From NCBI RefSeq assembly GCF_025165815.1, contig NZ_JAFFZE010000010.1, positions 310,001 to 374,000 on the forward strand: a stretch of 64,000 nt of DNA, in the 5' to 3' direction. The first letter of the stretch is position 1. The number at the start of each line of letters is the position of its first letter. The stretch is from Actinophytocola gossypii. Its GTDB lineage: Bacteria; Actinomycetota; Actinomycetes; Mycobacteriales; Pseudonocardiaceae. A model generated the notes under the pieces. That model was not told the DNA's origin, ran no database searches, and was given only the letters and a program-made list of their open reading frames with translations. Shown here one piece after another: positions 5,451 to 60,802 of this stretch. Position numbers and translations under genes: made by a program.

Positions 5451-6660
5451 GCCGGCCGAAGTCGCTGTCGGTCTCGTCGAGGAACGGCCGAACGTCGACC
5501 TCGCGAACCGGGACGTCGTCCCGCCGTCCCAGGTCGTGCAACCACTCCGCGGTCCTGGCGAGCGAGAGCCGCACGCGCCACGAGCCGCCCTCGGTGGCCC
5601 GCCGCCGCAACGCCGCGATCGTGCCGAACGCGGCGAGCCACCCGGTCGCGTGGTCGAGCGCCTGCACGGGCAGCGGCGCCGGCGGGTCGCCGGCCGCGAT
5701 CCCGCAGGACATCTGGACGAGACTGTCGAACCCACGCCGATCCCGCCACGGCCCGGTGTGCCCGTACGCGGCCAACTCGACGACGACGATGCCCGGCCGC
5801 ATGGCGGCGAGGTCCCGCGCCCCGAACCCCTTGGCGGCCAGGGCACCGGGCCGGTAGGACTGTAGGAAGACGTCGGCACCGGAAACCAAGGCGCGCAACC
5901 GATCGGGCTCGGCACGCAGGTCGAGATGACACGAGCGCTTGCCGAACCCGGTGTCCAGCACGAGCTGCTCCAGCACGGGCAGATGCGCCGCACCGACGTG
6001 CAGGACGTCGGCCCCGTGCGCGGCGAGCGCCCGTCCACCCACCGGCCCGGCGATGACGTGCGTGAGGTCGAGTACCCGCACCCCGGCCAACGCCGCCGGT
6101 CCCGGGCCGTTCGCCGGTCGCTGCGCGCCGACGACCGAGTCCCGTTGTCCCGTCTCGTCGATCCGCTCGATCGCCACCAGCGGTTCCGTGCGGATCGCGG
6201 CGCCCGGTCCGTCCGTCAGCCACTCCTCGCGGGTGCGCATCGCCGCCGCCGCGCCGCCTTCGGCCAGTACCGACTCCTCGACGTCGACCGCCCGCCTGCG
6301 GGCCGCCTCGGCGCGGACGCCGTCCTCTGGCACGCCCAACGCCCGGAGGATCGCCGCCGCGTGGTGCGGGTAGTTGGCGTGCAGGCGAACCCAGCCGTCG
6401 GCCGTGCGGTAGTCGCCGGACAGTGGTGTCCACAGGTCGGCCGGCGGGCGCAGGTGGCGCTCGCTGCGGAACGCCTCCGCCGCGTGTCCTATGTGGACCT
6501 TCGAGCCGGCGTCGGCCGCGAGGGTGGTGGCGGCGACGCAGACGGCGGCCGCGTGCGCCACCCGGTACCGGCCGGGGAGCACGTGCTCGTCGCCGGTGAA
6601 GGTGACCGGCGGCAACGGCTCACCGGTCACCTCCTGCCAGAGGGCGGCGAGCGCGTCCAC
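5368..6660 (-). CDS. CaiB/BaiF family III CoA-transferase-like protein
   Basis: This is a 430-residue protein related to family III CoA transferases, which move CoA between carboxylic acids. The Rossmann-type segment normally found at the N-terminus (GVRVLDLTHVIAGPVGGRAL, then SGADVFLQSYRPGALAAKGF and ELAAYGHTGPW) begins only near residue 200. The first 200 residues resemble the C-terminal part of the family (TADGWVRLHANYPHHAAAIL). The domain order therefore looks permuted or partly duplicated. GTG at 6660 follows the hemQ stop by two bases, so it is probably translated with hemQ. The substrate is unknown. Confidence 0.8.
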   Translation of the reverse strand: MDALAALWQEVTGEPLPPVTFTGDEHVLPGRYRVAHAAAVCVAATTLAADAGSKVHIGHAAEAFRSERHLRPPADLWTPLSGDYRTADGWVRLHANYPHHAAAILRALGVPEDGVRAEAARRRAVDVEESVLAEGGAAAAMRTREEWLTDGPGAAIRTEPLVAIERIDETGQRDSVVGAQRPANGPGPAALAGVRVLDLTHVIAGPVGGRALAAHGADVLHVGAAHLPVLEQLVLDTGFGKRSCHLDLRAEPDRLRALVSGADVFLQSYRPGALAAKGFGARDLAAMRPGIVVVELAAYGHTGPWRDRRGFDSLVQMSCGIAAGDPPAPLPVQALDHATGWLAAFGTIAALRRRATEGGSWRVRLSLARTAEWLHDLGRRDDVPVREVDVRPFLDETDSDFGRLTHLRVPGARIRPAGPRRPGRDPAEWW

Positions 6661-6662
6661 GT

Positions 6663-7352
6663 TCAGGGCAGGTTCGCGACCAGTTCGGCCGGCGCGACCA
6701 TCGGCCCGGTGTAGAACGGGATCTCCTCGCGCACGTGCCGGCGCGCGGTGCTGCCCCGCAGGTGCCGCATCAGGTCGACGATCCGGTCCAGCGCGTCCGC
6801 CTCGAACGCGAGGATCCACTCGTAGTCACCGAGCGCGAACGCCGGCACCGTGTTCGCCCGCACGTCCGGGTAGTCGCGCGCCATCAGCCCGTGCTCGGCG
6901 AGCATGCCGCGACGCTCGTCGTCGGGGAGCAGGTACCACTCGTACGAGCGCACGAACGGGTAGACGCACACGTACTTGCGCGCCGGCTCGCCGGCCACGA
7001 ACGCGGGCAGGTGGCTCTTGTTGAACTCGGCCGGCCGGTGCAGCGCCGCCTGGCTCCACACCGGGGTCGACGCGCGGCCGAGCGCGGTGCGGCGGAACCC
7101 GCTGTACGCGGCCTGCAGCTGCTCGATCTCCTCGGCGTGCCACCACACGAGGTAGTCGGCGTCGGCGCGGAGGCCGGCGACGTCGTACACCCCGCGGACG
7201 GTGACCCCCTTGTCGCCGAGGGCGTCCAGGTACTGCTGCGCCTCGGTGGCGGCGGCGTCCCGGTCCTCCAGGCGGCCTGGTTCGGCGCGGAACACCGACC
7301 ACATGGTGTAGACGATCTTGTCGTTGAGCTCGGCGTAGTTCAGGCGGGCCAT
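6663..7352 (-). CDS. hemQ: Coproheme decarboxylase HemQ (ChdC)
   Basis: This 229-residue enzyme decarboxylates coproheme III to haem b, the last step of the coproporphyrin-dependent haem pathway of Gram-positive bacteria. It is a chlorite-dismutase-fold protein of actinobacterial type ([20 protein letters not shown]). By comparison with the Corynebacterium diphtheriae enzyme, whose key residues all sit four positions later, His114 is the distal histidine, Tyr131 (YPFVRS) the catalytic tyrosine and His154 the proximal ligand. It lies 15 bases downstream of hemY and 2 bases upstream of the CoA-transferase-like gene, within one minus-strand operon with hemE. Confidence 0.96.
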
Positions 7353-7367
7353 GTGCCCATGTTTCCA

Positions 7368-8864
7368 CTAGCGCGCGGCGGTGTGCTCCAGAAGGTGCGC
7401 GGCGACACGCTCGGCGGCGGCGGTGGCGGTCTCCACGCAGGCCGGGATGCCGACACCGCGGAACGACGCACCGGCGACCGCGAGCCCCGGCACCGCCGCG
7501 ACGGCCCGTTCGATCGCCTCGACGGCGGCGACGTGCCCGACGCCGTACTGCGGCAGGCCCCCACCCCATCGGGTGATCACCCAGTCGAGCGGGCGGGCGT
7601 CGATCCCGGTCAACTCCCGGAGGTCGCCGAGTACCCCGGCGAGCAGTTCCTGGTCGTCCCGCCGAAGCAGCTCGGTCTCGCCGACCCGGCCGATCGAGGC
7701 CCGCAGCCGCACCGGCGCGGAGCCCCACTTGACGCTCGTGTGGGTGAACGCCTTGGCGGTGAACGGCGTCCCGTCCGAGTGCCGCTGCCCGACGGCGAGC
7801 AGCACGCCGCTGCTGTCGGGGAGGGTGACGGTGTCGGGCAGCACCATGCTCAGCACCGCCATGGAGCCGACCTCGATGCCCGCGAACCCCCTGGCCGCCT
7901 CGGGTGCGACCGGTTCGAGCAGCCGCCGGGCCGCTGGCGGCGGAACCGCGAGCACGACGGCGTCCGCGTGCAGGACCTCGGCCCGTCCGGGGCTGCCGAT
8001 CTCGAGCCGCCACCCGTCAAGTTCCCGGGCCAGCTCCCGCACCGGGTACCCGAGCCGCACGTCGGCCCGCGCCGCCCTGGCGAGCGCGTCGACGAGCACG
8101 CCCATCCCACCCCGCAACGCGCCGAACACGGGAGGTCGAGTGCCCTGGAGGTGACCTTCAGGACGTTGGGCGTCTCGAAGGTCACCTTCAGGGCTTTTCG
8201 GTCGCCGCTCGCCGCCGGACCCGGCCCCGCCCCCAGGTCCGCTCGCCGTCCCGCCGACAATCCCGGCCGCCGCCCTCGTCAAGGAGCCACCGGCGGCCTG
8301 CAGCCGGGCCACCAGCGCGGGCATCGTCGCGCGCAGGCCCAGTTCGTCGGCGCGGCCCGCGTACACCCCGCCCAGCAGCGGCTCGACCAGCCGGTCCACC
8401 AGCTCGCGGCCGAAGCGCTCCGCCAGCACCTCACCCACCGCGCGATCCCCGTCCGCCGGCAGCTCGAGCGGCGGCAGGGACGCCTCCCCCGCCACCCGCG
8501 AGGCCCCGTCCGCCGACAGCACCCCGCGTACCTCGCCCGCGTCCGCCGGCACGCCCAGGAACGTCCGCCTCGGCAGCCGGACCGTCCGTCCACCGGCCCG
8601 CACCGTCGCCCCCGCCGGCCCCGGGTGGATCAGCTCCAGCCCCAGTTCCCCGGCCAACGCCGCCGCCGCCGGGTTGCGCAGGACGAACGCCTCCGCCCCG
8701 ACATCGGTCGGCACCCCGCCGACCGGGACCGTCCGGAGCTTCCCGCCGAGCCGGTTCGCCTGCTCTACCAGCGTGATCCGCGCGTCCGGCCCGAGCAGCG
8801 CACGCAACCGGTACGCGGCCACCAGCCCGGACACGCCCCCACCCACGACAACGACATGCCTCAC
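7368..8864 (-). CDS. hemY: Coproporphyrinogen III oxidase (HemY/CgoX), with palindromic insert
   Basis: This 498-residue FAD enzyme oxidises coproporphyrinogen III to coproporphyrin III, given that hemQ is present. The N-terminal dinucleotide motif is [18 protein letters not shown]; the C-terminus closes with the FAD-contacting segment around [19 protein letters not shown] 8864 overlaps the hemE stop as GTGA, so the two are coupled. Residues about 201-243 are a low-complexity Gly/Ser/Pro insert just before the conserved [12 protein letters not shown]. Residues 224-241 of it ([18 protein letters not shown]) are encoded by a 53-bp palindromic repeat that also occurs at 10616. The frame stays open and the rest of the protein looks intact. 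Confidence 0.94.
8142..8194. repeat. 53-bp palindromic element, copy 1, in frame inside hemY
   Basis: The arms 8142-8164 and 8172-8194 are 23 bases each, pairing at 20 of 23 positions, with a 7-base loop. It matches the copy at 10616-10668 at 47 of 53 positions. GGTGACC, itself a palindrome, is the core of each arm. This copy is translated as part of a loop of HemY rather than lying between genes. 53 is not a multiple of three, so the flanks must have been adjusted. Confidence 0.85.
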
Positions 8865-9919
8865 GGCTCCAGGCTATGCACCAGCTCCACGACCCTGGTC
8901 AGCACGGTCGGGTCGGTCTCCGGCAGCACCCCGTGGCCCAGGTTGAACACGTGCCCACCGGCCGCCCGGCCCTCCGCCACGATCCGCCGGACCTCGCGCT
9001 CCACGGCGTCGAAGTCGGCCAGCAGCACCGCCGGGTCGAGGTTGCCCTGCACCACCGGCGCCGGCCGGCCCGGCACGGTCAGCCGGCGCACCGCCTCGTC
9101 GAGCGGCACCCGCCAGTCGACGCCGACGACGTCCGCGCCGGCGTCGCGCATGGCCGGCAGCAGTTCGCCGGTGCCGACGCCGAAGTGGATCTTCGGTACC
9201 TCGCGGACCGTGTCCAGTACGCGGGTCGAGTGCGGCAGCACGAACTCGCGGTAGTCCCGCTCGGACAGCGCGCCGGCCCACGAGTCGAACAGCTGCACCG
9301 CCTGCACGCCGGCCGCGACCTGTTCCGCCAGGAACGTGCTGGTGATGCCGGCCAGCGCGCCGAGCAGCGCGTGCCAGGTCTCCGGCTCCGAGTGCATCAG
9401 CGCCTTGGTGCGCTCGTGGTGGCGGCTCGGACCGCCCTCGATCAGGTACGACGCCAGCGTGAACGGCGCGCCGGCGAACCCGATCAGCGGTGTCTCGCCC
9501 AGCTCGGCACGCAGCAGCCGGACGGCCTCGGCGACCGGCGCGACCTGCTCGGCGTGCAGCTCGGGCAGGGCGTCGACCGCCGCCCTGGTGCGCACCGGCT
9601 CGGCCACCACCGGGCCGGTGCCGGGCACGATGTCGACGTCGAGCCCGGCGGCCACCAGCGGCACGACGATGTCGCTGAACAGGATCGCCGCGTCCACGCC
9701 GTGCCGGCGGACCGGCTGCATGGTGATCTCGCGGACCAGGTCGGGGGTGAAGCACGCCCGCAGCATCGGGATGTCCTTGCGGACCTCGCGGTACTCGGGA
9801 AGGGACCGACCCGCCTGGCGCATGAACCAGACCGGGACGCGGGCGGGGGTACCACCCGCGGCGGCCACCAGCAGCGGCGCTGTGGTGGTGCGGGGGGCGG
9901 CATCGGGCACGGAAGTCAT
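8861..9919 (-). CDS. hemE: Uroporphyrinogen decarboxylase
   Basis: This 352-residue enzyme converts uroporphyrinogen III to coproporphyrinogen III in the cytoplasm. The family signature [19 protein letters not shown] is near the N-terminus and [17 protein letters not shown] lies mid-protein. ATG at 9919 gives the usual family length. The TGA stop shares bases with the GTG of hemY, making hemE the first gene of hemE-hemY-hemQ-CoA-transferase. It is divergent from the DUF3000 gene, as in other actinobacteria. Confidence 0.97.
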
Positions 9920-10041
9920 AACGACACGAATCGTGCCACGGGGCGCCGGCGGCCCTGGTTTGACCTCCCGCCACCCTGGGTACGTAGGAAGATCACGGTG
10001 ACCTCCGGCGCGGCGTACACGCTCACTAGCTCGGGTGGTCT

Positions 10042-10047
10042 TACAGT
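10042..10047 (+). promoter_or_regulatory. -10 box TACAGT, leaderless start of DUF3000 gene
   Basis: TACAGT fits TANNNT and ends 8 bases before the GTG at 10056, so transcription would begin at or next to the start codon. No ribosome-binding site is visible. Confidence 0.5.
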
Positions 10048-10055
10048 TACGAGTC

Positions 10056-10622
10056 GTGACCAGAACGTCGGCACCGCCCGAACTGTTCACTCAGGCCGTC
10101 GCAGCCCTGAAGTCGCTGCGTCCGCGGCCGGAGTTGGAGCTCGGTGTGGTGCGCGCACCGCAACGCCTGGCACCGTGGGCCTACGCGATCACCGCCGAGG
10201 TCAACGGGCCGGCGGACGTGCTCGCCACCGGGCGGCTCGTCCTGCTGCACGACCCGGAGGGCCCGGAGTCCTGGGACGGCGTGCTGCGCCTGGTCGCCTA
10301 CGTCCGGGCCGAGCTCGACGCCGAGCTGGCCGACGACCCGCTGCTGCCGACGGTCGGCTGGTCCTGGCTGACCGACGCGCTGGCCGCCACCGGCGCGGAG
10401 TACACGGCGCTGGGCGGAACCGTCACCGACACCTCCTCGGCCCGGTTCGGCGACATCTCCGGCCCGGCCCGCACCGACGACCTCGAGCTCCGCGCGTCCT
10501 GGACCCCGGTGGACGCGAACCTCGTCCCGCACGGCGAGGCGTTCTGCGACCTGATGGCGAGCGTGGTGGGCCTGCCCCCGGTCGGCGTCACCGTCTTCTC
10601 CCAGCGGCAGGGCACGCCCTGA
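10056..10622 (+). CDS. DUF3000 family protein
   Basis: This is a 188-residue conserved actinobacterial protein of unknown function, recognised by [20 protein letters not shown] and by its location between hemE and the RNase D region. It has no signal peptide or membrane segment. GTG 10056 is preferred over the upstream in-frame GTG because a -10 box sits at the right distance. The last bases, including the stop codon, form the start of the palindromic repeat at 10616. Confidence 0.88.
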
Positions 10623-10668
10623 AGGTGACCTCGAGGACGCCGGGCGTCTCGAAGGTCACCTTCGGGGC
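10616..10668. terminator. 53-bp palindromic element, copy 2, at a convergent junction
   Basis: The arms are 10616-10638 and 10646-10668 with a 7-base loop, the same 23-7-23 layout as the hemY copy (47 of 53 bases identical). It begins inside the DUF3000 gene, whose stop TGA is at 10620-10622, and ends three bases before the stop of the convergent dipeptidase gene. Here it can serve as a bidirectional terminator. Confidence 0.75.
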
Positions 10669-10671
10669 TCC

Positions 10672-11820
10672 TCAGCGGGCGACGTCCTCGGCGGCGGCCA
10701 GGGCGCGGAGGACGTTCTCGCCGGCGAGCTTGGCGCAGTCCCGCTCGCTCCAGCCCCGCTCCAGCAGGGCCGCGAACAGCGCGGGGTAGCGGCTCACGTC
10801 CTCCAGGCCGACCGGGAGCGCGCTGACGCCGTCGTAGTCACCGCCCAGGCCGATGTGGTCGATGCCGGCGACCTCGCGGGCGTGCTCCACGTGCTTGACC
10901 ACCTCGTCGATGCCCACGTGCGGCATGGGCGGGCCGGACCACGTCTTGGCGAAGCGGTTCCGCTCGTCGACGTCGTTGTGGTCCAGGCCGGCCTCGGTCA
11001 TCGCCTCGTGCACCCGCTTGTCCCACTCCACCAGGGCGTCCGACACGAAGTAGGGCACGAACGTCACCATGCACACCCCGCCGTTCCCGGCCAGACGTTC
11101 CAGCACGTCGTCCGGCACGTTGCGCGGGTGGTCGGTGACCGCCCGGCACGAGGAGTGGCTGAAGATCACCGGAGCCGTGCTCACGTCCAGCGCGTCCCGC
11201 ATCGTCGTGGCCGCGACGTGCGAGAGGTCCACCAGCATGCCGATCCGGTTCATCTCGGCCACCACCTCGCGGCCGAAGTCGGTCAGGCCGCCCACCGCTG
11301 GCTCGTCGGTCGCCGAGTCGGCCCACGGCACGTTCTCGTTGTGCGTGAGCGTCATGTACCGCACGCCGAGCCGGTACAGCGCGCGCAGCACGCCGAGCGA
11401 CGAGTCGATGCAGTGGCCGCCCTCGGCGCCGAGCATCGACGCGACCCGGCCGTCGGCGAACGCGGCCCTGGCCTCGGCGGCGGTGGACACCACCCGCAGG
11501 TGCTCGGGGTACCGTTCGGCGAGGGTGTGCACCAGCTCCGCCTGCTGCACGACGGCGGTGACCGCGGCGTCGCCGGTGAACCGGCACGGCACGTACACCG
11601 ACCAGAACTGCAGCCCGACCCCGCCGGCGCGCAGCCGGGCGAGGTCGGTGTGCAGCCCGGGCTGGTGCTCGGTCAGGTCGACGCCGAAGCCGTCCGCGCG
11701 GGTTGTGTCGACACCCGGCAGGGACCGCAGCGCCCACGGCAGATCGTTGTGTCCATCGACCAGTGGAGTGGCGCCGAGCAACTGCCGCGCCCGCTCGAAG
11801 TAACCGTTCTGCACAACCAC
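10672..11820 (-). CDS. Membrane-dipeptidase family (peptidase M19) zinc dipeptidase
   Basis: This 382-residue protein belongs to the renal dipeptidase family, which hydrolyses dipeptides with a binuclear zinc centre. The zinc ligands are recognisable: His24 and Asp26 (VDGHND), bridging Glu133 (GAEGGH), His201 (DLSHVA) and His222 (FSHSS); GLGGDYDG near residue 310 supplies the acidic residue. No signal peptide is seen, so it is probably cytoplasmic despite the family name. The start is GTG 11820, with a second in-frame GTG two codons later. It is absent from the corresponding place in mycobacteria. Confidence 0.92.
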
Positions 11821-11871
11821 GACCCCGTTTCATCGTGTACCGACTCTTATTCGTTACGTCACCAACAAGAT

Positions 11872-11889
11872 GTCACCCGATCGTGTGAC
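11872..11889. promoter_or_regulatory. Near-perfect 18-bp dyad upstream of the dipeptidase gene
   Basis: GTCAC, one base, CGATCG, one base, GTGAC: a palindrome with only one mismatched pair, 52 bases upstream of the dipeptidase start in the 248-bp divergent gap before the response regulator. It is a possible operator; no binding protein can be assigned. Confidence 0.35.
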
Positions 11890-12068
11890 GTCTGCACGCC
11901 AGAGTGATGTCTCGATTGGATAGATAACGAATTGATCATCCCGCTAACCCGCTTGGGGGGCTAGGCTGCCCTCGTCGACACCACTTTCGGTCCAATGGCG
12001 GCGCGGCTGTTTGGCCGAAGGTCCCGGTGTAGGTCGGGGGGCACGACCGACTCCAGGGAGGTAGTGAC

Positions 12069-23161: not shown

Positions 23162-26100
23162 GTGCCCGTTGCCTTCGACTCCGCCGGGATGGAGCAGTAC
23201 GACGAGCGGACGTGGTTCGACCCGCGCACCGGCGACCAGGTGAGCCTGACGTACATCGGTATGGTGCCCGACCTGCCGGCGGGGTTGGACGCGCTGCCGC
23301 TGCTGCGCCACCGGCTAGCGCTGGAGACCGCCGAGATCGGCGGGTTGATCGAGGCGCACACGGTGTTCATCGACCAGGTGCCGGCGCTGTTTCAGCTGCT
23401 CAAGGTGCCGATCCCGAACCAGGAGACGGGGCAGGCGTTCATCGCCGCGTTCACCCTGCCGAAGGCGACGTGCAGCGTGGTGCTGCGGATCCAGTGCGCC
23501 GAGGGAGCCACGACCGGCGTGCGAGAGGCGACGGTGGCCGGGCAGGTCGGCCCGGAGAACTACCTGCGCCCGCACCCGTACGCGCCGGATCTGACGGGTC
23601 TGCTCCCCTGGCACGTGGCCGACGAGGCGAGGTGGGACGCGAACTTCCCCGACCACCCGTTGACCAGAGCCCGAGCCTGGGCCCACCACACGATCGCGAC
23701 GGCTCGGGTTGACCCGGCGTTCGCCCGCCTGGCCCCGTTCCGCCCGGACCAGACGGAGACCCTGCCGAGACAGGAGACGGTGTACACGCCGGCGGTCGGC
23801 TCGACGGACCGGGCGCCGTCGCCCAAACCCCCGTCCCAGCCCCCCGCGCCGCCGACGCCTTTCGCCCAGGAGCGGTCCGCACCGGTACCGCCGTCACCGA
23901 AACCGAGGCAGCCGACGGGCTCGTGGACCGAGCCGACGTCGGTACCTCCGTTCGGCCCCCCACATCCGGCCACGTCGTCAGCGGAGGACGCGGCGACACC
24001 GGTTCCCGACGCGCCGCGTCCCACCCCGCGACCATCGGCCGACGAGCCGGCACGGGCCGAGGTCCGACACCGACCCGACCCACCCCGACCAGGACCGGCC
24101 GACCTTCCACCACGGCCAGACCAACCCCGCCCGATCGGTCTCGCACCACCAGCCGACCAACCCCACCCGGCGCCGGCCGATGAACCTCGCCCAGCACCGC
24201 GGGACGTCCCACCACCAACCAACGCACCCCGCCCGGCACCGACCACCCTCGCACCAGCCGACGAACCTCGCCCAGCACCGCGGGACGTCCCACCACCAAC
24301 CAACGCACGCCGCCCGGCACCGACCAGCCTCGCGCCACCCGACGAACCCCACCTGGAACCAGCCGATCTGCCTCCGCCAGTCGACGAGGTTCGTCCAGCG
24401 CTGCCCGACCCCCCGCCACCAGCCGACGCACCCCGTCCAGGACCGGCCGACCTTTCGCCATGGGCCGACGAGGCGGGCGCGGCACTCCCACCGCCGGCCG
24501 ACCAACTTCACTCGGCGCTGCCCGACGTCCCACCACCAGCCGACGCACCGCGACCGGCAGTGCCCGACGGTTCACCAGCCGACCAACCTCATCCAGAGCC
24601 GGTCGAGCTCTCGCCACGAGCTGACGAGGTCCGCCCGCCACTACTCGATGTCCCACCACCACCCGGCGAATCGCGCCCGGCACTGGCCGACCTCTCACCC
24701 CCAGCCGAGCAGCAGTCCCACCCGGCACCGGCCGACCTCCCACCGCCAAGCGGCCAACCCCACCACGCACTGGCCGGCCTCGCACCGTCAGCCGACCAAC
24801 CTCAGCCGGCATCGGCCGATCCTCCGGCGCCGAGCGACCAGCAGCACCCGCCACCAGACGACCAACGCCACCCGGCACCGGCCGACCTCCTACCACCAGG
24901 CGACCAACCCCACCCGGCACCGGCCGACCCTCCACCACCAAGCGACCAACACCATCCGCCACCGGCCGGCTTCTCACCGCCGGCCCACCAACCCCACCCG
25001 GCACCGGCCGATCCTCCACCGCCAAGCGACCAACACCATCCGCCACCGGCCGGCTTCTCACCGCCGGCCCACCAACCCCACCCGGCACCGGCCGACCTTC
25101 CGGCGCCGAGCGACCAATCACATCCGGCACTGCCCGACGTGCCACCGCCAGGCGACCAACCCCAGGCACCGGTGGCGAAGGGTGAAACTGATCCGGCGCC
25201 GGACGATCTCCCGGCACCTGCCGACGAACCCCGTCCCGCGCCGGCCGACGCCCCGCGAGTCGACGAGACTCCACCGGCGTCGATCGACGAAATGGGCTCG
25301 GTACCGGCGGCATCTTCGGCATCGGACGACCAGCCGCACGGTCTCGCGCCGCTCGCCGGGCTTCAGTCCCGCAGTGACGCGCCGGAGCCGACAGCCACCG
25401 AGCCGGGCGGCGACCCGCAGGTGCCGGCGATCTCCGAATCCGACCTCTCACCGGCGGCGCTCCACGGGCCGCCTACCGACCTCAGGCCGCCGCCCACGCT
25501 CGGGCCGCCGCCCGACGTGCCCGACCCGACATCGGGCGATCACTCGATCGATTCCAGCTCATCGGGTGACTCCGACGAGGTGCGGCCAACGGTCGAAGAC
25601 GAGCCGAGCCACGGGCCGCCGCGCCCGACGCACGCGTTCTCCCTTCCCCCGCTGGCCGACGAACTGCCCCCGTTCCAACTCCCCCCGCGAGCCACGCTCG
25701 ACAGCGCGGCCGGGCCGTTCCGCCGGTCTCCGCTGCCGCCTGAGCCGGAGTCGCTCGAACTCAGCCCGCCGCCACCCGAACCCCCACCCGTCCGCGCCCT
25801 GCACCCGGTCACCAACGGTCTTCGCGCGGTGCCTCCGCTGGACGAACCCGCCGCCGTCTGGCAGGCACCGCCCGCCGACCCGGTTTCGCCCGCCACCAAC
25901 GGCTCCCCCAGGCCGAGACCACGGCACGCCAGCCCGGCCGAGACCACGCGGACCGTCCTCGTCGGGCTGCCGGTGGGCGACTACCTCTCGCTCTGGGTGA
26001 ACGACGAGCTGACCTACTGGCGCCTGGCCGACCCCGACGCGGTCCGCGCCCGGCTCGGGGCCGGGATCGAGGCGCGGTCCGAGGTCGAGGACCGGCGGTT

Positions 26101-26620
26101 CCGGGAGACCGCGCTGCTCGACCCGGACGCGAACACGCTGTTCCTCGCGGACCGGTTCCGCGACAGCACCGGCCGGCTCGGCGGTCCGACCACCGCGCTG
26201 GAACCCGCCACGGAGGACGAGGCAAGGCGCGCCGCCGACGACAAGGCGATCTCCGCGCTGTACCACTGGCTCGGCGAGGTGGCACTGGCCGCGGGCGAGC
26301 GGGACGAGCTCGTCGCGGTCGAGGTCGGCGGGTGGACGGCCACGGCGTCGCCTCGGGTCGAGGTCACTTTGCGGACGGACGGAGAGGAATGGCACTCCGT
26401 AGTCGAGGCGTCCCCTGTTCCGGTGGACGCTCCCGTGTGGCGTGACCAACAACCGGTTGACGGCGACACCCAGTTACTGGTTTCCCCGGCGACGGACCGG
26501 ACGATCCGCGCCGCCGGGCTGCTGACCAGGTTCGCCGTCGGAACGTGGTCGCTGCACCCGTTCCAGCTCGGGCTGACGTTCGGGCCAAACCCCACGCTCA
26601 GTGAGACACCGACGCGGTAA
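23162..26620 (+). CDS. Large proline-rich repeat protein with conserved ends, unknown function
   Basis: This is a 1152-residue protein with no signal peptide or membrane segment. Residues 1-200 are an unrecognised globular domain (MEQYDERTWFDPRTGDQVSL, and a DHPLTRARAWAHHTIATARV segment seen in other actinobacterial hypothetical proteins). Residues about 220-850 are a disordered tract rich in Pro, Ala, Asp and His, built of degenerate units such as PADEPRPAP and PSDQHHPPPAG. Residues about 930-1150 are a second globular domain (TVLVGLPVGDYLSLWVNDEL). The gene appears leaderless. The neighbour at 26664 also has a globular head and a proline-rich tail, suggesting a two-component assembly. A secretion-chaperone or scaffold role would be a guess. 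Confidence 0.75.
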   Translation: MPVAFDSAGMEQYDERTWFDPRTGDQVSLTYIGMVPDLPAGLDALPLLRHRLALETAEIGGLIEAHTVFIDQVPALFQLLKVPIPNQETGQAFIAAFTLPKATCSVVLRIQCAEGATTGVREATVAGQVGPENYLRPHPYAPDLTGLLPWHVADEARWDANFPDHPLTRARAWAHHTIATARVDPAFARLAPFRPDQTETLPRQETVYTPAVGSTDRAPSPKPPSQPPAPPTPFAQERSAPVPPSPKPRQPTGSWTEPTSVPPFGPPHPATSSAEDAATPVPDAPRPTPRPSADEPARAEVRHRPDPPRPGPADLPPRPDQPRPIGLAPPADQPHPAPADEPRPAPRDVPPPTNAPRPAPTTLAPADEPRPAPRDVPPPTNARRPAPTSLAPPDEPHLEPADLPPPVDEVRPALPDPPPPADAPRPGPADLSPWADEAGAALPPPADQLHSALPDVPPPADAPRPAVPDGSPADQPHPEPVELSPRADEVRPPLLDVPPPPGESRPALADLSPPAEQQSHPAPADLPPPSGQPHHALAGLAPSADQPQPASADPPAPSDQQHPPPDDQRHPAPADLLPPGDQPHPAPADPPPPSDQHHPPPAGFSPPAHQPHPAPADPPPPSDQHHPPPAGFSPPAHQPHPAPADLPAPSDQSHPALPDVPPPGDQPQAPVAKGETDPAPDDLPAPADEPRPAPADAPRVDETPPASIDEMGSVPAASSASDDQPHGLAPLAGLQSRSDAPEPTATEPGGDPQVPAISESDLSPAALHGPPTDLRPPPTLGPPPDVPDPTSGDHSIDSSSSGDSDEVRPTVEDEPSHGPPRPTHAFSLPPLADELPPFQLPPRATLDSAAGPFRRSPLPPEPESLELSPPPPEPPPVRALHPVTNGLRAVPPLDEPAAVWQAPPADPVSPATNGSPRPRPRHASPAETTRTVLVGLPVGDYLSLWVNDELTYWRLADPDAVRARLGAGIEARSEVEDRRFRETALLDPDANTLFLADRFRDSTGRLGGPTTALEPATEDEARRAADDKAISALYHWLGEVALAAGERDELVAVEVGGWTATASPRVEVTLRTDGEEWHSVVEASPVPVDAPVWRDQQPVDGDTQLLVSPATDRTIRAAGLLTRFAVGTWSLHPFQLGLTFGPNPTLSETPTR
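24181..24342 (+). repeat. 81-bp tandem duplication in the proline-rich tract
   Basis: Bases 24181-24261 recur at 24262-24342 with a few substitutions, encoding 27 residues twice (ADEPRPAPRDVPPPTN core). The near identity at DNA level indicates recent expansion. Confidence 0.8.
24941..25108 (+). repeat. 84-bp tandem duplication in the proline-rich tract
   Basis: The unit 24941-25024 is repeated from 25025; the first 71 bases are identical and only the last dozen differ. It encodes the 28-residue unit SDQHHPPPAGFSPPAHQPHP plus PAPADPPP. Confidence 0.85.
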
Positions 26621-41225: not shown

Positions 41226-41332
41226 GGAACAGTGCCCGCGGCTCACAGCGGCCCGGGACTTCCCCGCAATCCGGTTGACCAGGGCTTCGTTCCTTGGTTT
41301 CCGTGATCGACCGCAGCAGCGAAAGGGCGTAC

Positions 41333-42703
41333 GTGGCAGCCGCACGAACCGCAACCCGACGCTCCACCGCCTCGGCGAGCGCCGCCAAGTCGGCGGAAGC
41401 GCAGCCGGACACCGAACCGACTGAGAAGCCTGCCTTGAAGACCGCGAAGAAGCCGGCCGCGAAGACCACCACGCGGGCACCCCGCAAGCCCGCGGCCGGC
41501 GCGAAGAAGCCCGCCAGGAAGACCGCGGACAAGTCGAAGGCCGCCGAGGCCAACAAGAAGGCCGACGGCGCGGCCGCCGAGGACGGCGAGGAGCCGGACC
41601 TCGAGTCCCCCAACCTCTCGGACCTGGAGGACGTGGAGGTCGACCTCGTCGACGACACGGTCGCCGAGGAGGAGCCGGCGGAGGAGAAGCCGACCAAGGA
41701 AACCAAGGACGGCGACTTCGTCTGGGACGAGGAGGAGTCCGAGGCGCTGCGCCAGGCGCGCAAGGACGCCGAGCTGACCGCGTCCGCCGACTCGGTCCGG
41801 GCCTACCTCAAGCAGATCGGCAAGGTGGCGCTGCTCAACGCCGAGGAGGAGGTCGAGCTCGCCAAGCGGATCGAGGCCGGCCTGTACGCGGCGGAGCGGG
41901 TGCGCAAGGCCGAGGAGGAGTCCTCGGAGAAGCTGCTCCCGCAGATGCGCCGCGACCTGCGCTGGATCGTGCGCGACGGTGAGCGGGCCAAGAACCACCT
42001 GCTGGAGGCGAACCTGCGCCTCGTGGTGTCGCTGGCCAAGCGCTACACCGGCCGCGGCATGGCGTTCCTGGACCTCATCCAGGAGGGCAACCTGGGTCTG
42101 ATCCGTGCGGTCGAGAAGTTCGACTACACCAAGGGCTACAAGTTCTCCACCTACGCGACCTGGTGGATCCGGCAGGCGATCACCCGCGCGATGGCCGACC
42201 AGGCCCGCACCATCCGTATTCCGGTGCACATGGTCGAGGTCATCAACAAGCTGGGCCGCATCCAGCGCGAGCTGCTCCAGGACCTGGGCCGTGAGCCCAC
42301 GCCGGAGGAGCTGGCGAAGGAAATGGACATCACGCCGGAGAAGGTGCTGGAGATCCAGCAGTACGCGCGTGAGCCCATCTCGCTGGACCAGACCATCGGC
42401 GACGAGGGCGACAGCCAGCTCGGCGACTTCATCGAGGACTCCGAGGCCGTCGTCGCGGTCGACGCGGTCAGCTTCACGCTGCTGCAGGACCAGCTCCAGT
42501 CGGTGCTGGCCACGCTGTCCGAGCGCGAGGCGGGCGTGGTGCGGCTGCGCTTCGGCCTCACCGACGGCCAGCCCCGCACGCTCGACGAGATCGGCCAGGT
42601 CTACGGCGTCACCCGCGAGCGGATCCGCCAGATCGAGTCGAAGACCATGTCGAAGCTGCGGCACCCGTCGCGCTCGCAGGTTCTGCGCGACTACCTCGAG
42701 TGA
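41333..42703 (+). CDS. sigA: Principal RNA polymerase sigma factor (SigA/HrdB)
   Basis: This is the 456-residue housekeeping sigma-70 factor. Residues 1-70 are a Lys/Ala-rich N-terminal extension and 80-135 an acidic stretch, as in HrdB. Region 1.2 begins [20 protein letters not shown]; region 2 contains [20 protein letters not shown] and [17 protein letters not shown]; region 4 ends with [23 protein letters not shown] 41333 follows GAAAGGG and matches the VAAxxxT style N-terminus of orthologues. A 12-bp hairpin follows the gene. Confidence 0.98.
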
Positions 42704-59833: not shown

Positions 59834-60802
59834 ATGACGGTCCCACAACAGCGCGAGCCGGAGCCCAACGAGATCGATCTCGACTCGCAGGGCCCCGCGG
59901 CCGATCTGGTCCGCGTGTACCTGAACGGCATCGGCCGGACCGCGCTCTTGACCGCGGCCCAGGAGGTCGACCTGGCCAAGCGTATCGAGGCGGGCGTGTT
60001 CGCGCAGCACATGCTCGACTCGTCCGACAGCCCGGAGGGCACGGACAGCAGCGAGCTGCGCGCACTCGTACGCGACGGGCACCGCGCGAAGAACCACCTG
60101 CTCGAGGCGAACCTGCGGCTCGTGGTGTCGCTGGCCAAGCGGTACACCGGGCGCGGCATGCCACTGCTCGACCTGATCCAGGAGGGCAACCTGGGCCTGA
60201 TCAGGGCGGTCGAGAAGTTCGACTACACCAAGGGCTTCAAGTTCTCCACGTACGCGACCTGGTGGATCCGGCAGGCCATCACCCGTGGCATGGCCGACCA
60301 GGGCCGCACCATCCGGCTGCCCGTCCACCTGGTGGAACAGGTGAACAAGCTGGCCAGGCTCAAGCGCGACCTGCACCAGCAGCTCGGCCGCGAGGCGACG
60401 AACGAGGAGCTGGCGTCCGAGGTCGGGCTGACCCCGGAGAAGGTCGCCGACCTGCTCGACCACGCGCGTGACCCGGTCAGCCTGGACATGCCGGTCGGCT
60501 CCGAGGAGGACGCCCCGCTGGGCGACTTCATCGAGGACGGCGAGGCCACCGACGCCGAGAGCGCGGTGATCTCCGGCCTGCTGCACGACGACCTGCGCCG
60601 CGTCCTCGCCACCCTCGACGACCGCGAGCAGTCGGTGATCCGGCTGCGCTACGGACTCGACGACGGCCAGCCGCACACGCTCGACCAGATCGGCAAGCGT
60701 TTCGGCCTGTCGCGCGAGCGGGTGCGCCAGATCGAGCGCGAGGTCATGTCGAAGCTGCGCCAGGGTGAGCGGGCGGAGAAGCTGCGCGCGTACGCGAGCT
60801 GA
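59834..60802 (+). CDS. sigB: Principal-like RNA polymerase sigma factor SigB
   Basis: This 322-residue group 2 sigma factor lacks the long N-terminal extension of SigA. Regions: 1.2 ([20 protein letters not shown]), 2 ([37 protein letters not shown]) and 4 ([20 protein letters not shown]). It directs stress and stationary-phase transcription. ATG 59834 follows GGGGGAGGGAG. The 230-bp leader with an ECF-type promoter suggests stress induction. Confidence 0.96.

Follow-up and report, generated by a model that had tools for sequence, protein, structure and literature searches.

Coding copies of Rickettsia-type palindromic elements (RPEs) share a reading frame, and inverted pairs of DNA uptake sequences, which are repeated inverted pairs at gene ends, serve as terminators. 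In the excerpted text of PMC2229807, RPEs are palindromic repeats of 105–146 bp that lie between genes and, as in-frame fusions, within conserved protein genes, with 19 protein reading frames carrying one. REP doublets or REPINs, as described in portions of PMC3116915, are extragenic inverted pairs of palindromic units that form hairpins and occur beside singlets and clusters. Hairpins near stop codons, for which poly-U trails are not necessary, are reported in PMC8355165.

Here we analyzed a window of 64,000 nucleotides from the soil bacterium Actinophytocola gossypii (contig NZ_JAFFZE010000010.1, positions 310,001 to 374,000) in which a palindromic element lies in frame inside hemY. Like RPEs, the repeat occurs both between genes and in frame inside genes (2 of 39 listed sites), and its coding copies, two only, are absent from orthologues and share one frame. 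Compared by description, it differs from RPEs in that its unit measures 53–61 bp against the 105–146 bp given in the excerpts of PMC2229807, and in that its copies, found in an actinobacterial family, are almost all located at gene ends, only 2 of the 39 being in coding sequence. It resembles REPINs in its inverted doublets, singlets, and clusters (tandem arrays in genome G001). However, REPINs accompany RAYT transposases, and the RAYT-type family PF01797, detected in 5 of 14 control genomes, was found in none of the six genomes of the genus; a REP/RAYT system was rejected on this ground. In addition, REP doublets are reported to be random in extragenic space in the portions of PMC3116915 cited above, whereas the copies here are tied to gene ends. 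With intrinsic terminators the repeat shares a stable hairpin just past the stop codon, a two-way arrangement between convergent genes, and compensatory stem changes. Ordinary terminators, to our knowledge, do not form sets of near-identical copies homogeneous within a species, nor are they found inside enzymes, whereas the hairpins described here are near-uniform repeats in each species and also lie inside two enzymes. We know of no link between this gene-end hairpin family and DNA uptake.

The family would be terminator-like in action and is REPIN-like in repetition and RPE-like in its coding copies. It was assigned to neither repeat family, because the RAYT family was not found in the six genomes of the genus and the size and placement are unlike those of RPEs. 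For Pseudonocardiaceae, no account of such a family was found in the open-access literature searched, which lacks most subscription journals.

Two in-frame copies and their absence from relatives

The product of hemY matched the protoporphyrinogen oxidase model TIGR00562 with 177.3 bits (cut-off, 97.85). The 53-bp palindrome lies in frame in this gene, whose ORF (minus strand, 8864–7368) is open throughout; the core encodes residues 224–241, and the 61-nt frame corresponds to 20 residues. Positions 8142–8195 are 89% identical, ungapped over 54 nt, to positions 10616–10669. The coordinates, length, identity, and in-frame position that the first-pass annotation had given were thus confirmed. The gene downstream is presumably hemQ / chlorite-dismutase-like.

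Table 1 Features of the hemY region and of the gene-end copy near position 10616. Positions are those of the window.
Feature	Position	Strand	Basis
hemY, protoporphyrinogen oxidase, 498 aa	7368..8864	-	TIGR00562 above cut-off; PDB relatives 3i6d, 3lov, 2ivd
Palindromic element in hemY	61-nt frame 8138..8198, core 8142-8194	-	Repeat, hairpin, model match, in-frame translation
hemQ / chlorite-dismutase-like gene (presumed), downstream of hemY	6663..7352	-	Gene call
Gene-end copy of the element	10612..10672	-	Repeat and model match; fills convergent gap
Left convergent gene	10035..10622	+	Gene call; TGA stop inside element; no NCBIfam match
Right convergent gene	10672..11820	-	Gene call; end meets element; no NCBIfam match

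As single-stranded RNA, the 66-nt hemY stretch was predicted to fold with -47.7 kcal/mol on the plus strand and -41.2 kcal/mol on the hemY sense strand (z of -8.42 and -8.25, respectively), and none of 200 dinucleotide shuffles was as low on either strand. Because there are at least 39 genomic sites (29 at E < 1e-6) and the folding z is about -8, the hemY palindrome is not a chance sequence. There was no U-run 3' of the stem on the sense strand, where the tail is ACTCGACC; the T-run TTTTCGGT belongs to the antisense strand. An Rfam scan of window positions 6000–12000 gave no match at the gathering score.

A second coding copy (contig C28, position 399808; L094) encodes ERTEGDLRGVQRPGGHLQGI in a variable linker of isochorismate synthase. 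The host protein scored 286.6 bits with TIGR00543 (cut-off, 224.75), and its best-scoring model, DhbC, was below its own cut-off. This copy scored 76.6 bits with the covariance model described below; it is one of the training sequences, but it was first found by an exact pattern. Both coding copies are read in the same frame (..EGDLR..QRP.GHLQG..), one of two stop-free peptide frames, and two of the three frames of the element are open on each strand.

The hemY copy lies within the linker from LRATM to PPVFGAL, which is variable in length and composition across relatives. The segment was absent from all 29 relatives that could be aligned out of 59 searched, five of them in the same genus; its absence from relatives, on which the suspicion of a mobile element had partly turned, is borne out to this extent. 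From motif to motif, the A. gossypii gene measures 222 nt against 177 nt in G002, 126 nt in G004, and 123 nt in G005, while the HemY linker of the more distant relative G009 is equally long (74 residues) without the element. No linker length was obtained for L037, and the value for L049 was wrong, a later motif having been matched. The isochorismate synthase segment was likewise absent from 19 of 19 aligned relatives (19 of 40 searched were aligned), and the linker is 9 nt longer than in G002 and G004. A simple precise insertion of the element was disfavored, as the net length differences misfit at both coding sites. No clean element-length insertion or target duplication was discernible at the borders, for whose exact placement the relatives are too diverged. 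These lengths would be better explained if the element had replaced linker DNA already present, or had inserted and then been trimmed, than by simple insertion.

Gene-end copies in A. gossypii and other Pseudonocardiaceae

At 10616, the copy spans the whole 49-nt gap that separates two convergent genes. It supplies the stop of the left gene, which ends at 10622, and in its 61-nt frame overlaps by one base the gene ending at 10672. The first-pass annotation had called this copy intergenic, which holds in that it fills the convergent gap but not in the strict sense, since it contains the one stop codon and reaches into the other gene. We take the left gene to be DUF3000-like and the right gene to be membrane-dipeptidase-like. 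No such hairpin was present at the corresponding junction in G002, where the orthologous genes overlap, or in G004, where the gap is 24 nt. In G001 and G003, hairpins of other sequence adjoin the right-hand gene. The stretch taken from G005 yielded no right-hand gene.

To count the copies, a covariance model was built from nine of them, including the hemY, 10616, and isochorismate synthase copies. Searching the 7.38-Mb genome with this model gave 71 rows on both strands, corresponding to at least 39 distinct sites at E ≤ 0.1; among the 39 sites listed, 29 had E < 1e-6 and four were 31-nt single-unit copies. The suggestion in the first-pass annotation that the element is mobile is upheld in this respect, that is, as a repeated family. 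The hemY copy was the third best row (81.6 bits) and the 10616 copy scored 73.8 bits, both being in the training set. Because these searches scored a limited number of candidates per genome, namely 150 in A. gossypii and in the searches with model R1 and, with the general model R2 described below, 45 in the family and 27 in the class sample, counts in copy-rich genomes are lower bounds and weak A. gossypii copies may be missed. The copies include single units besides inverted pairs of palindromic units.

Genes around the sites were called by a codon-usage caller trained on the window and were not taken from the annotation. By gene context, 26 of the 39 listed sites were in convergent gaps, 11 in co-directional gaps, none in divergent gaps, and 2 inside genes; thus 37 of 39 lay downstream of genes. 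A gene end was at most 30 nt away in 36 of the 37 non-coding sites, and 36 of the 63 facing gene ends overlapped the match. Given that roughly 85% of the window is coding, two or fewer of 39 sites inside genes would be expected by chance with a probability of the order of 1e-28. The corresponding values for no divergent site among 37 were 1.6e-5 by gap count and 9e-14 by gap length. The first-pass annotation had likened the element to RPEs that colonize coding sequence; the likeness stands for a repeat with in-frame copies in two enzymes that are absent in relatives, whereas colonization of coding sequence does not agree with 2 of 39 sites. Two exceptions to the placement were a site (C28:127436), one of the 37, far from any called gene end, and a degenerate half-copy found by pattern (L277) in a divergent gap. 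A single-unit pattern match inside another A. gossypii gene (L232), which is without the TGAA/TTCA frame, was counted as chance.

Gene-end copies place a stable stem at, over, or directly past the stop codon. The 8-nt tails of copies of the element held 2.3 T on average against 1.1 expected, and four or more T were present in 10 of 66 tails (33 copies). At least two further arm types with the same architecture, the GAAGGCTCCCTTC type and the GAACGACCC type (L074–L077; L073, L080, and L081), were also seen at A. gossypii gene ends; the gene pair that flanks L077 also flanks a copy in G003.

In relatives, the same architecture occurs at gene ends with other arm sequences and compensated stem changes. 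For G001, G003, G005, and G149, part of the sites was examined. Among the sites first examined, 13 of 13 in G005, 19 of 20 in G003, and 22 of 22 in G001 were in convergent or co-directional gaps; in a second batch, this held for 62 of 69 matches (40 loci) in G001 and 18 of 19 (15 loci) in G149. Together, 134 of the 143 examined matches were in such gaps, and the other nine comprised three unclassified, four called inside weak predicted ORFs, and two divergent. The seven exceptions in G001 (three unclassified, three inside, and one divergent) were all in two tandem arrays, the three inside calls being units of one array in a weak ORF. The inside call in G003 was in a weak predicted ORF of 114 bp, and one copy in G149 was called divergent. 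None of the 143 examined matches in these four genomes was a verified coding copy. The G001 arrays repeat the palindromic unit at a spacing of about 30 bp (L257, 2501–2877; L239, 75–241), which shows that head-to-tail expansion of the family also occurs.

To evaluate stem conservation, 50 chosen sequences from five species were aligned: 25 of the 26 A. gossypii copies of the 61-nt type (L069, out of register, was left out), 7 of 13 from G005, 8 of 20 from G003, 6 of 22 from G001, and 4 of 15 loci from G149. Stem cells were paired in 88.4%, against 33.9–43.5% when the pairing was slid. Double-change cells numbered 214 against a shuffle mean of 81, and the seven inner columns of the arm (13–19) contained 114 of these cells. 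Two of the five covariation measures were not clearly above shuffles, namely the pairs with a double change (19 against 16.4, reached in 35 of 500 shuffles) and the further pair types (52 against 50.6, reached in 195 of 500).

A degenerate pattern of the architecture was found in 22 of 297 Pseudonocardiaceae genomes (5 of 46 genera), whereas the reversed control pattern matched no genome. A general model (R2) gave matches in 63 of 120 genomes of the family (29 of 46 genera) at E ≤ 0.001 and, at the different threshold of E ≤ 1e-5, in 8 of 197 genomes of a class sample, A. gossypii included. Genome G513, of the same order and another family, gave 16 R2 rows (best E, 1.1e-11), and the family may extend to this one other family of the order. 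Copy number was very uneven, from at least 39 sites in A. gossypii and 254 forward pattern matches in G001 to genus-mates G002 and G004, which gave no row with model R1 and two rows each with R2. At two orthologous gene pairs, the element is present in both A. gossypii and a relative, with different arms (C28:155319 and G003 L149; C28:388868 and G005 L134), too few to tell conservation from coincidence. At 55 further loci no gene pair was common to species, and only single flanking genes were shared (best identity 60.5%, C11:16836 with G149 L218).

Proposed role and competing explanations

We regard it as moderately probable that these copies form a Pseudonocardiaceae gene-end hairpin family that multiplies within species, and that hemY tolerates its copy as a passenger. 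The palindromic units measure about 30 nt, and a head-to-head pair of them usually forms one 53–61-bp hairpin capping gene 3' ends. Position and compensated stem changes show that this hairpin is located at the stop codon or across it and, in convergent gaps, faces both genes. Because of this position and the stem covariation, the data point to a hairpin acting as RNA at gene ends, most likely as a 3'-end structure, either a terminator or an exonuclease barrier. Termination and 3'-end protection are thus both likely roles. According to part of PMC4824070, a terminator several bp after a gene is almost completely repressed in E. coli through the ribosome, which argues against plain termination at the stop-codon spacing seen here; with this repression and the weak T-tails, protection appears at least as likely as termination. 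The copies would multiply and become uniform in each species through copying or conversion, as suggested by the species-specific arms and uneven copy numbers. Two copies lie inside genes, where they occupy variable linkers and are read in one of two stop-free frames. The hemY copy is most likely a passenger, an 18–20-residue loop with presumably little effect on the enzyme, and translating ribosomes would hold its hairpin open. That the hairpin inside hemY is harmless for this reason is plausible by analogy with the ribosome-mediated terminator repression in E. coli described in the same part of PMC4824070.

The same hairpin as a functional attenuator or RNA-processing site setting the hemY/hemQ ratio would suit its great stability in the message (-41.2 kcal/mol) and its place upstream of the co-directional hemQ-like gene. 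However, the sense strand has no U-run after the stem, all 29 aligned relatives lack the segment, the unrelated isochorismate synthase gene contains a similar copy, and in E. coli translation represses a terminator located late in a coding region (in the portion of PMC4824070 cited); we consider such a function very improbable. Another explanation, ordinary evolution of low-complexity linkers with a chance resemblance to the element, could call on the variability of the linker in all relatives, on G009, which has the same length without the element, and on net length changes that differ from the element length. It is nearly refuted by the 89% identity to the 10616 copy over 54 nt and by the exact-pattern match that first identified the isochorismate synthase copy; the model scores of 81.6 bits (third best row) and 76.6 bits also oppose it, though both copies are training sequences.

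More serious is a true RPE-like mobile element, which would insert anywhere by its own or borrowed transposition, selection leaving copies at gene ends and in tolerant linkers. Such an element would account for two unrelated enzymes carrying the repeat in the same frame, for the sharply different copy number among genus-mates, and for two of three open frames per strand. We nevertheless judge it unlikely. PF01797, the single transposase family covered, was found in none of the six genomes searched; the coding copies show no precise insertion length or target duplication, relatives being too diverged for exact borders; and copies lie within a few nt of gene ends, tighter than selection against coding and promoter sites predicts. 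With the equally long G009 linker, the first two of these points are also where the mobility proposed in the first-pass annotation falls short. Returning to the gene-end hairpin family, a bolder form of it can be offered tentatively: a self-spreading hairpin capping stop codons. In each species its arms would be rewritten in concert across the genome with no change of architecture or placement, and at times it would overwrite a protein linker in frame rather than insert into it.

In hemY and isochorismate synthase, it seems that a signal of gene ends has been incorporated into protein. If this is true, it would join multiplying repeat families with the transcript-end signals used by cells, which are usually kept apart, and would explain a bulk change of the gene-end hairpins of a genome. 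It would also be a case outside Rickettsia of new protein segments arising from a palindromic repeat, for which the two in-frame copies would be ready tests of whether palindrome-derived protein segments are neutral.

Other repeats in the window

Two genes 18 kb apart (41294–42703 and 59834–60802), which we take to be sigma-70-type, share repeated 300-bp blocks with 85% and 72% DNA identity. A 1152-aa ORF (23162–26620) has a Pro-rich middle of many imperfect repeats (24047–25248) of the type PADxPPPxDQPHPA, spaced mostly at 42 bp (14 residues).
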